Made by a program: the position numbers and the translations under genes
Shown: positions 31,421 through 44,027 of the stretch, one piece after another
How positions within the stretch are numbered: the stretch's first letter is position 1
Layout: each line of letters begins with the position of its first letter
IMG/VR virus record: IMGVR_UViG_3300006802_000116
Location: 1 to 55,998 of that record
DNA length: 55,998 bases
Source of the DNA: a virus
Reading direction: 5' to 3' (one strand)
Notes under the pieces: model-generated
What the model saw: only the letters and a program-made list of their open reading frames with translations
Database searches by the model: none
Told to the model about the DNA's origin: nothing

Positions 31421-31462
31421 GCAGGCGCCTGCCGCGTCGGGTGAAACGGGTAGATTGTGGCT

Positions 31463-33001
31463 ATGCCCGCAAGCTCAGCCGCACTTGCCTTACGCCGTAG
31501 CGCGCAGCTGGCGGCACGGTCGATCGTCAAGGAGGTGGAGGTCGAGATTGAAGAGACCCCGCCTCACATCCTGAAGGCCCGCGAAAGCTTTAGCCATTTC
31601 TGCACGCTGATGGGCAAGCCGCCTGCGCGGCACATGAAGGAATGGCACAAGGCATTTCTGACCGGGCAAAGCAATGACCACCTGCTGGATATAGCCGGCC
31701 CGAACACTTGCTTGCTCGCGAGCAGGGGTAGCGCCAAAAGTACGGTGCTCGGCTTATTGCTGGGTTGGCTGATTGGCCGCCATGCAATGGCCAAGAAGCT
31801 GTTGCGGATTCTCTACGTCTCGTACAACGTTGACGTAGCCCGGAACAAGAGTGCAGCAATCAAGAACCTGATTCTCTCGAAGGAATACCAAGAGGTCTTC
31901 CCGAGTGTTCGCCTGTCCAAGACGAGGACGTCGGATGAGCTATGGAGCATCGACTGGGAGCACGCCGAGGTTGACGTGCGTGGTGAGGATGCCTTCACGA
32001 TCGCCTGCGCTGGCCTGAAGGGCACGATCACCTCCAAGCGAAGTTCGTTGATTGTGGTGGATGACGCGATCAAGAGCGCGGCCTCGATCGCCAATCCAGA
32101 CATTCGCCGCGAGATGGAGACGAACTGGACAAACGTGATCGTGCCGACCATGTTCCAGGGTGCGCGGGCGATCGCCCTGGGCACTCGATTCCACTTCGAC
32201 GATCTGTTCGCGACGATCTTCACGGAGAAGAAGGGCTGGAAGATCATCACCCAGTCCGCCCTGCGCTACGACGATGACGGCCGCCCCCGCTCTTACTGGC
32301 CGGAGATGTGGTCGACCAAGTACCTGCTGAAACTGCAGCAGGACGACCGCATCGCCTTCTCGTACCAGTACCTCAACCAGCCGGTGCGAACGGCAGAGCT
32401 AGGCGTCAGTCCGGAATTATTCGTGCGCGGAGAGGTGCCCGACACCTACGACACGATCGGCGTGGGCATTGACCTCTCGGCCGGCATGAGCGAGCGCAAC
32501 GACTGGACCGTGTTCACGTTGGCTGGCCGCGTCGATGACAAGTGTTACGTGATCGACTACAAGCGGATGCGCTCGATGGGCAATCTCGAGAAAGTCGAGG
32601 CCCTCTGCGAGCTCCTGCTGGAGTGGAATCTGCTAGCGACCAACGACGCAGGCCAATACTTCCCGACGAACTCGCCGGTAGTGATCTGGCCAGAGGTGGT
32701 GGCGTATCAGAAGAGCTTCGAGGGTGACCTAAAGCGGGTGCTGTTCAACGAATGGGGGCTGCACAACCTGTCGGTCTCACCGGTCAAGGGCTTTCGCGGC
32801 GACAAGCTGGCGCGGCTGCGGGGCATCCTGGGTCTATTTCAGGCCAAGAAGATCATCTTCAACAAGTACCGCGACTTCAGCTGCATGATCGATGAGATCA
32901 CCAACTTCGGCCATAGCCCACACGATGACTGTGCCGACAGCTTGAACATCGTGGTGCAGGGCCTGATGCGCCGCGGTGCTGCGCAAGTTGAGTGGACCTA
33001 A
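31463..33001 (+). CDS. terL: Terminase large subunit
   Basis: A 512-residue protein from ATG 31463 (GTG 31457 also possible). It contains the ATPase with Walker A ASRGSAKST (about 86-94) and Walker B SSLIVVDDA (about 194-202), and a C-terminal RNase H-like nuclease with GVGIDLSAG (D337) and HDDCADSL near 485. Length and domain order are normal for TerL, the motor that pumps and cuts phage DNA. It is followed 10 nt later by the portal gene. Confidence 0.93.
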   Translation: MPASSAALALRRSAQLAARSIVKEVEVEIEETPPHILKARESFSHFCTLMGKPPARHMKEWHKAFLTGQSNDHLLDIAGPNTCLLASRGSAKSTVLGLLLGWLIGRHAMAKKLLRILYVSYNVDVARNKSAAIKNLILSKEYQEVFPSVRLSKTRTSDELWSIDWEHAEVDVRGEDAFTIACAGLKGTITSKRSSLIVVDDAIKSAASIANPDIRREMETNWTNVIVPTMFQGARAIALGTRFHFDDLFATIFTEKKGWKIITQSALRYDDDGRPRSYWPEMWSTKYLLKLQQDDRIAFSYQYLNQPVRTAELGVSPELFVRGEVPDTYDTIGVGIDLSAGMSERNDWTVFTLAGRVDDKCYVIDYKRMRSMGNLEKVEALCELLLEWNLLATNDAGQYFPTNSPVVIWPEVVAYQKSFEGDLKRVLFNEWGLHNLSVSPVKGFRGDKLARLRGILGLFQAKKIIFNKYRDFSCMIDEITNFGHSPHDDCADSLNIVVQGLMRRGAAQVEWT

Positions 33002-33010
33002 AATCAACCA

Positions 33011-35212
33011 ATGAGCCAGCCTAAATCCGAGCGTTTCCGGCGCATCCTTGAGGCCGCGCGCAAGCGTGACGGCAACAGCGGCACGGACACGATGATCGTG
33101 AACTCGCATCTCGCGCAGATGCGGATGTTCATGCTGCGACAGGGGCTGGAGTTCTACCCGGCTCAGGATACCTTCGGCTTCCGCAAGTCGTTCCTGGCTG
33201 CCCTGATCGAGGAGAACGAGATTGACGCTCGCCTCGAGGGCATCGTCGATGACTTCCTGATTGACGGTAAGGGGCTCTGGTATTTCCGCCCGGTGCGGGA
33301 CACCTACCGGCTGATGTGGTTCAGCCGCGACAACTACCGCGCCTATTACGACGCCGCCGGTCAGCTGGAAGAGGTAGAGCTGATCTACAGCTTCTCGGTG
33401 CGTGACGGCATGGGCGGCATGGCGGCCTTGGCGGGCGATGGTGGTTCGCTGCGCTACGTCAAGCTGCAGGTGCGTCGTGACGTGATCAAGGAGTCGATCA
33501 CCACTGAGAAGCCGAGCTTCGACGTGGGCGTGAGCAGCCTGAACTACGCCCCGACCGGCACCCGTACGCTCACCAACAGCCTGGGCTTCATCCCGGCGGT
33601 CGAGGCGTTCAACAACATGCGCTCGACGGGCATGGATGCCTCGGGCGAGTTTGACTGGCTGAGCGACCACATCGTCACGCACGACGACCTGGTCAAGAAC
33701 ATCCGCGCCAACATCACCTTCTACGGCAACCCGACCCTGGTCTCAAGCCGGCCCAAGCAGGATCTGGTGGAGGCGGGCGATAGCGAGGAGTTCCGCCCGA
33801 CCATCTCGTCCCAGGCCGGCTTCTACGCCGCCAATCGTCCATCGACGCGGGTGAGCAGCCCACTGGGGAGCGGCACGGGTCCTGGCATGCGTGTGCCGCG
33901 GATCATCGCCAACATCGAGGCCACCGACCGCGTTGCTTACATCACGCCCGATGCCGTCTCGGGCGATCAGAACCTCTACGCCCGGCAGTACCGCGAGGAG
34001 CTGCGCAGTGCCCTGGGCGGCGTGGATGAGCTGGGCGTGAGCACCGGCGCGACCGCCTATGAAATCAAGTCGCTCTTCGGGCGAGCGGCAACGACGGCGT
34101 CACGCAAGTGCCGCGGTCTACTGACCTACGGTTTGTGCAAGCTGCTGGCGCTGATTCTCTTCCACGAAGAGCAGATCTTCAAGGATTCGTTTGCAGCGGC
34201 CATCAAGCTCGAAAAGCCGCCGATTCCCCTGCGGGAGGAGTTCCCGGACGCCCAGCAGTTTGAAGACGCGGTGGCGCAATTCCGCGAGGCATTCGCATCC
34301 TTTGAGCAGGCTCTCGACCAGAAGATCGGCGAGGCCGTTCAGAACCGCTCCCTGCCGCCCGGCGTGGTTGGTTTGATCCCCGACGGCGATCGCAAGGTGG
34401 ACTGGCGTTGGCTGGGTCCGGTGTTTGAGGAGTCCACGGAAGATATACTGAACTCAAGCATTGTCGTGCGCAACCTTCAGGAACTCGGCGTCAACAGCAT
34501 CGAGGCCCTGAGGTACCTCTTCCCGGATAAAACCGACGAAGAACGCAGCTCGATGCTCAGTGGCTACCCATTCCGGATGGCGCAGGCCACACAACAAAGC
34601 ATTGGCACCTTCCTGACGCTGATCCAAAACATGCGTCAGATCCCGCATCCACAGGCTCCGGACCTGCCCCTGTTGGCGGACCCCAAACTCGATTTGACGC
34701 CCTACGTCTATCGAGCCCTTGATTTCCTTAAGCGAGAACTGACCTATGCAGGACAGTACAACGATGGCGACGGCAGTGGCGACCCCGCAGCCCTCGATCC
34801 CATCCAGCGTGGCCGCGCCGACCGTGGCCTCCCCGCAGCAGACAGCGGCCCAAGCTTCGTACCCGACGGCCCAGGCCTATACACCGGAGGCGCCGGTTTC
34901 GGCACCCCAGGCCAACCCATGGCAGGCGGCGTACCAGGGGCTCCTCGCCAGTCTGAGCGGGACGCAACCCTCCCAGCCCCAGGCGTACTCCTCGCCGCAG
35001 ATCCCACAGGCGGCCCCTATCCCGGCGGCCTACCCGCAGGCAGCAGTGAGCTACCAGGCGGCTCCATCCGTTACGGCGCCGCTGACCTCGCTGTACCCAC
35101 AAACGCAGGCCTATTCCCAGGCGACTCCGGCACAGGCTCCGAGCTACAGCAGCGCGCCGAGCGCAGCCGCGAGCGACGAGTATCTCCAAAGCGTCAGCAA
35201 CGAAAGCCTTGA
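33011..35212 (+). CDS. Portal protein with long overlapping tail
   Basis: A 733-residue protein. It begins MSQPKSERFRRILEAARKRD and has portal-type features: an IVDDFLIDGKGLWYFRPVRD region, the YRLMWFSRDNYRAYYDAAGQ segment, and helical stem (QYREELRSALGGVDELG). Position after TerL and size near those of P22 or N4 portals support the call. The portal forms the dodecameric DNA gate. The last ~155 residues are Gly/Pro-rich and overlap the scaffold gene in another frame for 467 nt, which is very long for phage; this tail may be a non-essential overprinted extension. Confidence 0.85.
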   Translation: MSQPKSERFRRILEAARKRDGNSGTDTMIVNSHLAQMRMFMLRQGLEFYPAQDTFGFRKSFLAALIEENEIDARLEGIVDDFLIDGKGLWYFRPVRDTYRLMWFSRDNYRAYYDAAGQLEEVELIYSFSVRDGMGGMAALAGDGGSLRYVKLQVRRDVIKESITTEKPSFDVGVSSLNYAPTGTRTLTNSLGFIPAVEAFNNMRSTGMDASGEFDWLSDHIVTHDDLVKNIRANITFYGNPTLVSSRPKQDLVEAGDSEEFRPTISSQAGFYAANRPSTRVSSPLGSGTGPGMRVPRIIANIEATDRVAYITPDAVSGDQNLYARQYREELRSALGGVDELGVSTGATAYEIKSLFGRAATTASRKCRGLLTYGLCKLLALILFHEEQIFKDSFAAAIKLEKPPIPLREEFPDAQQFEDAVAQFREAFASFEQALDQKIGEAVQNRSLPPGVVGLIPDGDRKVDWRWLGPVFEESTEDILNSSIVVRNLQELGVNSIEALRYLFPDKTDEERSSMLSGYPFRMAQATQQSIGTFLTLIQNMRQIPHPQAPDLPLLADPKLDLTPYVYRALDFLKRELTYAGQYNDGDGSGDPAALDPIQRGRADRGLPAADSGPSFVPDGPGLYTGGAGFGTPGQPMAGGVPGAPRQSERDATLPAPGVLLAADPTGGPYPGGLPAGSSELPGGSIRYGAADLAVPTNAGLFPGDSGTGSELQQRAERSRERRVSPKRQQRKP

Positions 35213-41110: not shown

Positions 41111-41254
41111 ATGTGGATTGACAATGACTTCCCGAAGCTGTTAGGTGCCGAGCTGTACCGGCCTCACCCGAGTTATATCGTGGAGATGGCTGTTGAGCCT
41201 GTCGTAGTACACGACTTTGCAAAACAGCCGGGGCAGACTGTACAGCTTGACCGT
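41111..41254 (+). CDS. Major capsid protein, exon 1
   Basis: First 48 codons of the capsid protein (MWIDNDFPKLLGAELYRPHP...). The exon stops after a GTT GAG... to CTT GAC CGT run; the next in-frame codon is TAA, so without splicing only 48 residues would be made. The last exon bases GACCGT pair with intron bases GCGGTC, with a U-G wobble at the cut site as group I introns require. The full spliced gene (144+274+218+507 nt) encodes 380 residues, typical for an N4-gp56-like capsid protein. Confidence 0.85.
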
Positions 41255-41580
41255 TAATTGACTGGTTAGCGGTCATTAAATCCCGTGAATTCAGGGAACC
41301 CCTCCTAAGCTTTAATCGGCAGTAGCCGAGAACCTCGACAAGGAAAGCCGGAATATCGGCAGCATCTTTTATGCATCTCGGCTCTGCCTGGATGTTGGGG
41401 AATCCTGAGCCAAGCCGCCTGGGAACAGGTGGAAGGTGCAACGACTAGGTCATGGAGTCCAGGACGGACGGTAAAGACCCACGAGCGCGGGACGGTCGCA
41501 CGGCCGAAGAGATAGTCTGACCTGCATCAATGGAAAAGATGCAGAACCATCGGATAAAGAGCCGATGGGGTAACAATGTG
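41255..41580 (+). ncRNA. Group I intron 1 in capsid gene
   Basis: A 326-nt intron without an ORF. It has P4 halves AATTCAGGG and AATCCTGAGCC (TCAGG pairs with CCTGA), R element GCAACGACTAGG, and S element GAGATAGTCTGACC (GACTA pairs with TAGTC, P7). Two 3' hairpins follow, and the intron ends in G (...CAATGTG). P1 is GACCGT with GCGGTC. The joined reading is LDR-YRFWGAPG, in frame. Confidence 0.85.
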
Positions 41581-41854
41581 TACCGCTTCTGGGGAGCACC
41601 GGGCACCAAGGACAGCCGTGAACGCACGGCTGATCAAACCCTTGGCACCGCCTCTTCTCGCAGTATTGTCAAGGACAAGGTTCTTGTATCCCTTAAGGAA
41701 TACACGGGCCCCGCAGATCCTACCGATACTGCTGCACCGAGCACTTTCAAGATTGCTCGCGAAACCCTGCTTACCGCCCAGCGTCTTCTGCTGGATACCG
41801 GTAACCTGAACGTCTTCCATCAATCGATTGGAAGTCTAACTCTGCTTGATGACT
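41581..41854 (+). CDS. Major capsid protein, exon 2
   Basis: 274 nt encoding 91 residues plus one base (YRFWGAPGTKDSRERTADQT...; NVFHQSIGSLTLLDD). The exon ends GATGACT; GACT pairs with intron GGTC with a U-G wobble. The final T plus exon-3 AC gives a tyrosine, producing LLDD-Y-RRWRDR, which fits related capsid proteins. Confidence 0.85.
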
Positions 41855-43051
41855 CGGCCGAAAGGCTAGTGGTCGCCTAGGCGGAAACGCTTAGGGCAAT
41901 ACGGGGTGAATTGCTGGGAGCCCTTTCCGATCATGCCAGCGATCGGAGGAGGGTCAGGAGCTACAACGCAGCCCGGAAGGGCAATCGTGAACGCCTGAAA
42001 ATCCTGATACCGCATGGGTTATCAGCAGCCAAGCCAGACCACAATCTGGAAGGTTCAACGACTAGGTCCCGAGAGGCAACTCGGTAACGGACCCACGAGC
42101 GCCCCGCACCTGTACCTTGTTAACTGAAGAAGATTCTGTACTTTCGTTCAAGACGAAAGACCCCCTCCGTCGTGCCTTCGTAAAGAATGCGAGCCAAGGC
42201 AATGGCGTTGTCTGCATACCAACGCAAGACGTAGGTATTGCGGTCGCGACCCAGGGACGTTGCTCGCGGGAGGACTGAATCAGCCCACGCTTTGCAGCCG
42301 AGAGCGAAATGCTCACTGGCTGTAGTGATCTGGGCTGCCAATGCTCCACACGAGCGCCGCCCCACGGAACCGTCGCCATCGAAGACCCCCCTGACGTAGT
42401 GACTGACAAACTCACTCGGCAGATCCGGCCACTCGAGGGTTCGAGACTTCCGGGGCGTGACACCATGCCGGATCAAGTCTGCTGCCATTGCTGGACTAGT
42501 GAATTTCACCTGCAGCATCGGCGACCCTTTTCGGGTTCGCAGAGGCACGCCAGGGAAGCCCACGCATTCGGCATATTGCTCTAGAGCTTGGCGATCTCGC
42601 TCGTGGAGGGCAAAGCCGACTCCTCGAGGTACGTTGTTCTCGGTCACGATCCAGCCATCGGCGGATAGGAAGCCGAGCCAGTACACCTTCTGGGGCGCGT
42701 CAAGCTCCCCGAAGAAGTCCTCGTGGACCTCGCGGCGGTAACTCACGGCTCGACGGGCTCCGGGCTTTCGCTCATACGCATCGTCGTACTTGCGGCGTCC
42801 GTGTTTCTGAGCGAAAGATCGCACACCGGCCGCCTTCCGATGGTGGGTAGCAGCAGTCCGGGACAGCCCGTACAGCTCTCCAATCTCCTTATCGGAGAGC
42901 ACGTCGGTCAAGCCGTCAAGCGCCTCGCGCGAAAGGGCATTTAGAGGGATCTTCAACAAGACAAGAATGGTGAAGATATAGTCTAACCTTGCTCGATGAC
43001 AAAGAGCAAGCGTGCGGATAAAGAGCCGCGCGGCCCTTTGGGGCACTGGTG
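41855..43051 (+). ncRNA. Group I intron 2, with antisense HEG
   Basis: A 1197-nt intron. P/Q/R/S elements are AATTGCTGGGA, ATCAGCAGCCAAGC, GTTCAACGACTAGGTCCCG and AAGATATAGTCTAACC. An R-to-S insertion carries a LAGLIDADG gene on the opposite strand. Ends in G (...CACTGGTG). The core is nearly identical to intron 3, so the two share recent ancestry. Confidence 0.85.
42120..42959 (-). CDS. LAGLIDADG endonuclease antisense in intron 2
   Basis: About 280 residues; the frame is open to 43127 but the part before 42959 lies over intron core and exon 3, so a TTG near 42956-42959 is the likely start (KIPLNALSREALDGLTDVLS). An HTH-like segment (DKEIGELYGLSRTAATHHRK) is followed by two LAGLIDADG motifs, VYWLGFLSADGWIV and YVRGVFDGDGSVG, both with Asp. 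This is a single-chain homing endonuclease that would cut intronless capsid alleles. It is transcribed opposite to the capsid gene, so it needs its own promoter. Confidence 0.8.
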   Translation of the reverse strand: MLKIPLNALSREALDGLTDVLSDKEIGELYGLSRTAATHHRKAAGVRSFAQKHGRRKYDDAYERKPGARRAVSYRREVHEDFFGELDAPQKVYWLGFLSADGWIVTENNVPRGVGFALHERDRQALEQYAECVGFPGVPLRTRKGSPMLQVKFTSPAMAADLIRHGVTPRKSRTLEWPDLPSEFVSHYVRGVFDGDGSVGRRSCGALAAQITTASEHFALGCKAWADSVLPRATSLGRDRNTYVLRWYADNAIALARILYEGTTEGVFRLERKYRIFFS

Positions 43052-43269
43052 ACCGTCGCTGGCGCGACCGTGTATTCGCCGATGAGCTGTTCAAAGCTGA
43101 AGCCAATGGCGCAGCTGACAGCACCAAGGGTGGTTACTACTACCCGCTGAAAAAGGCAAAGGCCGCTTCTGCGCCTTTCCTGACCTACGCAGCCGGTGAA
43201 TCTGCCAAGTTTGATGTCAAGACCGACCTCCTCGAGGTGGTCAAGGACATGCGGAAGCGTAACGTGCCT
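43052..43269 (+). CDS. Major capsid protein, exon 3
   Basis: 218 nt encoding the end of a split tyrosine codon plus 72 residues (RRWRDRVFADELFKAEANGA...; LLEVVKDMRKRNVP). The exon ends GTGCCT; GCCT pairs with intron GGGC with a U-G wobble. Next in-frame sequence would soon stop (TGA after ACGGCG). Confidence 0.85.
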
Positions 43270-43520
43270 GGAACATGGGCCTGTACGGCGTGAGTCGTAC
43301 AGCAAACAGGGTGAATTGCTGGAACCCCTCCACTACACGGGGAATCAGCAGCCAAGCCAGACCACAATCTGGAAGGTTCAACGACTAGGTCCCGAGAGGT
43401 AACTCAGTAATGGACCCACGAGTGCCCTGCTACTCCATCGAGTAGATGAGATAGTCTGACCTCGCAGGATGGCAAACTGCGAGAACCGAGGGATAAAGAA
43501 CCCTCGGGGTAACAAAAGTG
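43270..43520 (+). ncRNA. Group I intron 3 in capsid gene
   Basis: A 251-nt compact intron without ORF: AATTGCTGGAACCCC, AATCAGCAGCCAAGCC, GTTCAACGACTAGGTCCCG, and GAGATAGTCTGACC, then two hairpins, ending ...AAAAGTG. The hairpin between R and P3 suggests subgroup IA. Splicing yields NVP-TFADGYYRC in frame. Confidence 0.87.
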
Positions 43521-44027
43521 ACGTTCGCTGACGGCTACTACCGCTGCATCGCGGATCCTACCGCGATGATGCACCTGCGCCAGAACGATGCGTTCCGTGA
43601 GATCGCTCGTTACGCTGGCAACGGCATGGTGAACCCCATGCAGCCCGAGTTGGCTCCTAACGCCAACTTCTTCCGTGGCATGGGTCCCGCCTATGGCCAG
43701 GCCGGCTTTGTTGCTGGTCAGCCCGTGATGCCGTCTGGCTTTTTATTTGAGGGCGTCCGCTGGTTCGAGAGCACCAACCTGCCCGAGAAGAGCCTGCAGG
43801 TGACCATCACCGACGCGTCGATCACCTCGACCGTCACCACTGCTGCTCCGATGCTGTTCTTCGGTCCTCAGGCCGTGGGCGTGGGCATCGGCGGCAACAA
43901 CGCTCAGATCCTGCTGAACAACAACGACGATTTCAGTCGTTTCATCATCATGATCTGGTCGCTTTTCGCCGGTTTCGAGATCCTGAACAAGGACTTCGTG
44001 ACCGTCGCTTACTCCTTCGTTTACTGA
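43521..44027 (+). CDS. Major capsid protein, exon 4
   Basis: 507 nt including the stop (TFADGYYRCIADPTAMMHLR...; QLDR-to-end core). Segments AYGQAGFVAGQPVMPSGFLF and VGVGIGGNNAQILLNNNDDF and the end VTVAYSFVY are those of an N4-gp56-like HK97-fold capsid protein. The fold forms the icosahedral shell. It is followed by a strong AGGAGG site for the next gene. Confidence 0.85.
   Translation, partial: TFADGYYRCIADPTAMMHLRQNDAFREIARYAGNGMVNPMQPELAPNANFFRGMGPAYGQAGFVAGQPVMPSGFLFEGVRWFESTNLPEKSLQVTITDASITSTVTTAAPMLFFGPQAVGVGIGGNNAQILLNNNDDFSRFIIMIWSLFAGFEILNKDFVTVAYSFVY

Follow-up and report, generated by a model that had tools for sequence, protein, structure and literature searches.

The major capsid gene of mycobacteriophage LittleE contains a single intron, most likely of group I, and its splicing was demonstrated by RT-PCR (PMC3706429). 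The same article cites Tuc2009 as another phage with one capsid gene intron. In the Bastillevirinae, the DNA polymerase and terminase genes contain as many as three group I introns per gene (PMC11878797), and that article, with its reference 34, gives up to three for orf142 of phage Twort. The tape measure gene of Vibrio phage ICP1 consists of four exons and three introns (PMC10448857). The major capsid gene of Faustovirus E12, a giant virus of amoebae, carries five group I introns with homing endonucleases inside (PMC6247863). Ribosomal DNA provides the best record of group I introns spreading to many sites, and transposition by reverse splicing has no direct evidence (review PMC3984707).

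We analyzed IMG/VR virus record IMGVR_UViG_3300006802_000116 as one window of 55,998 nt. On sequence evidence, we are highly confident that it contains the capsid gene of an S-EIV1-like phage and that this gene is interrupted at codons 48, 139, and 212 by three group I introns of IA-like type; their removal would restore a 380-aa protein. Splicing in vivo, homing, and the direction and mechanism of a jump within the gene are what we infer. LittleE likewise has a capsid gene intron, an antisense LAGLIDADG gene, and known intronless relatives, but it is an unrelated phage with one intron instead of three, and no multi-site colonization was reported. Twort and the Bastillevirinae can likewise have as many as three group I introns in a single gene, although not in a capsid gene. 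ICP1 has three introns in a structural gene and an endonuclease content that varies among isolates; its endonucleases are of the HNH-3 type, and its splice junctions are constant between isolates, whereas the present capsid lineage uses about 20 sites. Faustovirus E12 also has several group I introns in a capsid gene, but they are mixed with seven spliceosome-like introns. Nuclear rDNA introns resemble the capsid lineage in that related introns occupy many sites, and reverse splicing into targets that match P1 has been proposed to explain their spread; they occupy more than 90 sites in rDNA, whereas the introns of the capsid lineage lie in one phage protein gene of 1.14 kb. The sequence-only reading had called three introns in one essential structural gene exceptional in comparison with T4-type phages. 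For three introns in one phage gene, this was too strong in view of the Bastillevirinae, Twort, and ICP1, and the phage does not belong to the T4 type. Phage genes with three introns have precedents; the unusual feature, a new variation on them seen in the relatives, is that a single phage gene has been colonized at about 20 sites. A literature search, with most subscription papers outside its scope, found no report of introns in S-EIV1-like capsid genes.

Capsid gene and its joined reading frame

The features of the locus are listed in Table 1. Splicing the four exons in silico gave an in-frame ORF of 380 codons plus stop. A separate protein-to-DNA alignment with an intron state, which used no Rfam or RNA model, reproduced all six junctions exactly, so the exon lengths and joined frame proposed from the sequence alone were borne out. 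The alignment program adds a small bonus for a U before the intron and a G at its end, which decides ties only; because both are rewarded, the 5′ U and the 3′ G carry no independent weight where a junction is ambiguous.

Table 1. Coordinates of the capsid gene, its introns, and their features in the window
Feature	Position	Strand	Description	Basis
Capsid gene exon 1	41111..41254	+	144 nt, codons 1-48	Spliced alignment, intronless homologues
Capsid gene exon 2	41581..41854	+	274 nt	Spliced alignment
Capsid gene exon 3	43052..43269	+	218 nt	Spliced alignment
Capsid gene exon 4	43521..44027	+	507 nt including stop	Spliced alignment
Group I intron 1	41255..41580	+	326 nt, site 48.0	RF00028, 56.8 bits
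Group I intron 2	41855..43051	+	1197 nt, site 139.1	RF00028, 38.2 bits, E 1.9e-7
Group I intron 3	43270..43520	+	251 nt, site 212.0	RF00028, 56.8 bits
LAGLIDADG homing endonuclease ORF	42120..43049	-	Antisense to capsid gene	PF14528, phrog_4645
Intron 1 P7	41443-41447/41513-41517	+	GACTA/TAGTC	
Intron 2 P7	42060-42064/42979-42983	+	GACTA/TAGTC	
Intron 3 P2	43281-43287/43296-43302	+		By eye
Intron 3 P3	43307-43311/43425-43429	+		By eye
Intron 3 P7	43383-43387/43452-43456	+		By eye
Intron 3 P7.1	43388-43392/43412-43416	+		By eye
Intron 3 P8	43430-43435/43440-43445	+		By eye
Intron 3 P9	43461-43467/43477-43483	+		By eye
Intron 3 P9.1	43486-43492/43501-43507	+		By eye
56-bp repeat, copy 1	42021..42076	+	Intron 2, P4 3′ strand to P7.1	Sequence, relatedness of introns 2 and 3
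56-bp repeat, copy 2	43344..43399	+	Intron 3, identical to copy 1	Sequence

In the PHROG search, the 380-aa protein matched phrog_1357 "major head protein" (E 2.4e-20), as did all 17 relatives tested. The genes for the terminase large subunit (31457-33001) and a virion structural protein (33011-35212) are located upstream. This similarity and gene order support the earlier identification of the interrupted gene as the major capsid gene. A sequence search of the PDB found no entry matching the capsid protein, and the AlphaFold model (mean pLDDT 32.5) was unusable for checking an HK97-type fold, probably because of too little alignment diversity.

The sole annotated capsid relative was that of Synechococcus phage S-EIV1, which is uninterrupted and 68.8% identical over the full length. 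The phage is probably S-EIV1-like with a cyanobacterial host, the host being suggested by S-EIV1. The scan of the genome collection gave no host evidence because its capsid matches were MAG contigs, likely misbinned phage. Capsid genes of the lineage were found in contigs filed under archaeal, planctomycete, rhodobacter, and other GTDB genomes (L303-L308, L310, L311), and these contigs are probably misbinned phage. Record KJ410740.1 does not list the S-EIV1 capsid ORF (L004 6001-7152 = KJ410740.1 60859-62010; 383 aa, GTG start) as a single gene. The antisense "hypothetical protein" AHV82227.1 overlies its first two thirds, and the 157-aa "hypothetical protein" AHV82228.1 corresponds to its C-terminus.

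IMG/VR contained hundreds of uninterrupted relatives, of which the best 80 of 596 matched stretches were used. The nearest intronless alleles among the matches listed showed 98% amino acid identity to the joined protein over 380 of 380 residues, ungapped, at a DNA identity of only 85–87%. The spliced frame is therefore under strong purifying selection, and the comparison of alleles indicates that selection preserved the joined reading frame rather than the interrupted DNA.

Group I introns of the window and the intron 2 endonuclease

A search with RF00028, suggested by the sequence-only reading, matched all three introns (41245-41544, 41858-42243, and 43260-43483). Introns 1 and 3 scored above the gathering score of 50, and intron 2 remained below it as a single match because its core is split by the endonuclease gene. 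The P7 halves GACTA and TAGTC were present in all three introns. Intron 1 has an extension of about 70 nt in the P5/P6 region, and no ORF was found in intron 1 or intron 3. Intron 1 was 86% identical to the same-site intron of L183 over 324 nt, and same-site relatives of intron 2 were found in L104, L125, L141, L209, and L111.

At each 5′ exon end, a U stands opposite an intron G (the U.G pair of P1), and every intron ends in G, as had been noted. The consecutive P1 pairs numbered 7, 5, and 4 in introns 1, 2, and 3. Over 21 insertion sites, with the search limited to 26 nt, the mean P1 length was 4.43 bp versus 3.05 ± 0.26 bp with swapped exons, and none of 5000 permutations reached this value. 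An earlier test with an overly wide search window was weaker (7/2000 permutations). P10 pairing was not significant (88/2000 permutations equally good).

Core covariation was analyzed in 13 introns of the lineage on a P3-P4-P5-P6-P7.1-P7.2 structure; the first row of the alignment was intron 3 of the window. Standard pairs made up 93.4%, and double changes occurred in 18 of the 28 pairs. The covariation score was 0.533 versus 0.140 in shuffles (0/500) and at most 0.161 in slid controls. P3, P4, P5, P7.1, and P7.2 covaried (the last two at alignment columns 96-100/120-128 and 104-106/111-113), and the P6 pairs were invariant. P7.1/P7.2 helices between P7 and the 3′ strand of P3 are a mark of subgroup IA, and this feature suggests that the three introns, whose cores are complete, are IA-like. 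The RF00028 matches, P1 and P7 pairing, core covariation, and intronless alleles confirm, at the level of sequence, that the three insertions are real group I introns.

Intron 2 also contains an endonuclease ORF, which is absent from the earlier description. It lies between the core and the 3′ half of P7, in the L8 position. Its stop is at 42120-42122 and its candidate TTG starts are at about 42959 or 42911, and the open frame extends into exon 3 to 43127. The product matched PF14528 LAGLIDADG_3 (E 3.2e-6) and the phrog_4645 endonuclease (E 6.5e-36) and has two LAGLIDADG motifs, WLGFLSADGW and VRGVFDGDGS. The NG86 dN/dS was approximately 0.07–0.08 against same-site homologues, with dS saturated. 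These values indicate that the ORF is intact and under purifying selection.

We propose that each intron would fold in the transcript, that cleavage at the P1 U.G pair would use a guanosine cofactor, and that exon joining would yield a capsid protein equal to the one encoded by intronless relatives. Mobility has probably been retained by intron 2. In co-infected cells, its antisense LAGLIDADG product would cleave, at codon 139, capsid alleles that lack an intron, and the intron would be copied into the cut allele during repair. The other two introns have no endonuclease and may be remnants of mobile introns or may have moved with other help. Another explanation is that the introns are degenerate and non-splicing, in which case the capsid gene could be a pseudogene, or the assembly could be chimeric or dead. 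The record is environmental and incomplete, and intron 2 scores below the Rfam gathering threshold, but the spliced frame is open and retains its protein identity to intronless alleles despite 13–15% nucleotide divergence. The complete cores, the intact endonuclease, and the same-site introns in independent contigs (L104, L125, L102, L183) also argue against this explanation, which we regard as very improbable.

The 56-bp sequence shared by introns 2 and 3 forms an exact direct repeat with copies about 1.3 kb apart, and recombination between them would remove exon 3, the loss of which would put the capsid frame out of register.

Insertion sites and endonucleases among relatives

Relatives were gathered by the whole protein, the intron core pattern, the endonuclease, three exon segments, and a genome scan, which gave 169 distinct alleles of the capsid gene after removal of duplicates. 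Full-length genes with 0, 1, 2, 3, and 4 introns numbered 114, 13, 14, 3, and 3. In the three single exon-segment scans, 19/63, 16/65, and 10/65 full-length genes carried introns. The loci were picked by similarity to the window, so these frequencies describe its neighborhood rather than all such phages. The insertion sites (codon.phase) were 4.0, 6.0, 6.1, 17.0, 18.0, 30.2, 35.2, 36.0, 36.1, 37.0, and 48.0, followed by 88.1, 107.0, 132.1, 138.0, 139.1, 144.0, 209.0, 212.0, 232.0, 283.0, 290.2, and 349.2. Merging those confusable through boundary ambiguity leaves about 20 sites. Insertions without the usual core motif, at sites 4, 6, 18, and 349 among others, also matched Rfam. When 27 records were searched whole and positions compared by hand, all 20 RF00028 matches were located inside the capsid gene. 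These records included S-EIV1 and 17 long records with an uninterrupted capsid gene, and the search sees RF00028-detectable introns.

Four-intron capsid genes were seen in L095 (5134-7002, minus strand; sites 4, 18, 30, 48) and L096 (minus strand; sites 48, 107, 138, 283). A 151-nt "intron" at site 167 in L212 was dropped as a probable alignment artefact.

Three kinds of endonuclease were found: antisense LAGLIDADG_3 (sites 139, 144, 283, 290), sense LAGLIDADG_2 (sites 18, 36, 88, 107), and antisense HNH_3 (site 4). The idea that all intron endonucleases of the family are antisense was rejected on account of the sense group. The presence of three types in one essential gene would fit introns kept for a benefit to the phage, for example through endonuclease interference with co-infecting relatives or splicing-delayed capsid expression, rather than as purely selfish elements. 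About one quarter to one third of full-length alleles carry introns (exon-segment samples 145-208 and 293-380), and an intron endonuclease of PhiPA3 is reported to interfere with a co-infecting phage (PMC11620839). Yet many introns, including introns 1 and 3 here, have no endonuclease, most alleles are intronless, and the patchy distribution suits selfish gain and loss. We consider a benefit to the phage unlikely.

Within this short, strongly conserved phage gene, natural alleles range from intronless forms to forms with four introns; site 48 has two different introns, and a jump from site 283 to site 212 is a candidate event. Three types of endonuclease occur, in both orientations. This variety makes it possible to test how introns arise, home, and change site, and the gene is a natural system for the study of intron spread. 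Gene callers and surveys of capsid genes will overlook the marker or cut it short in a considerable fraction of these phages.

Probable movement of introns between sites

The tree of intron cores grouped mostly by insertion site (22 changes versus a shuffled-label mean of 41.5), which is expected under homing and inheritance. The site-212 intron of the window nested within the site-283 introns with moderate support (bootstrap 80-93). It was 95% identical to the site-283 intron of L096 over 160 nt (from nt 7) and 89% over the last 80 nt. The 5′ exon ends in TGCCT before both the site-212 and the site-283 introns, and the codon-283 site of the window reads ATGCCG and has no intron. The likeness of the two introns could instead reflect gene conversion between introns or ancestry shared with an unsampled donor. 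The P4-P7 region is very similar family-wide, an exact 56-bp stretch is common to introns 2 and 3, and the branch supports are of the size given above; set against this, the likeness to the L096 intron spans nearly the whole intron and both sites have the same P1 target. We regard conversion or shared ancestry as possible but doubtful. It is likely, judging from the tree and the shared target, that intron 3 derived from the site-283 lineage and jumped, inside the gene, to a target of identical P1 sequence.

In the core tree, site 48 has at least two different intron types. A further exception to grouping by site was the site-35 intron of L093, which was closest to the site-48 type of the window (78.6% over 318 nt). 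The three other carriers of this type had a 5′ exon block of low divergence from the window in the first approximately 200 coding nt. The ratio of local to background divergence was 0.41–0.61 in these carriers versus at least 1.08 in 21 other close alleles, for a case chosen after inspecting the table. Such a block could result from homing with co-conversion, and ordinary recombination fits too. A general co-conversion test over 12 sites was not significant, and only site 48 stood out.

We tentatively speculate that one phage capsid gene may have served as a landing ground for a family of group I introns that moved between positions in it, perhaps through reverse splicing at the RNA level into targets that match their guides. 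The roughly 20 sites, the non-orthologous introns sharing a site, and the genes with as many as four introns would be the traces of such spread, and the search of these genomes found no Rfam group I intron outside the gene.

A group I intron of the same core type was also present in L085 (4982-5277, minus strand; RF00028 80.6 bits), in a contig without this capsid gene. L085 was dropped as a capsid intron carrier after its spliced alignment proved spurious. L116 was nearly identical to the window in the upstream 90 nt and the C-terminal part, and its first approximately 180 coding nt were strongly diverged, a pattern that indicates mosaic capsid alleles.
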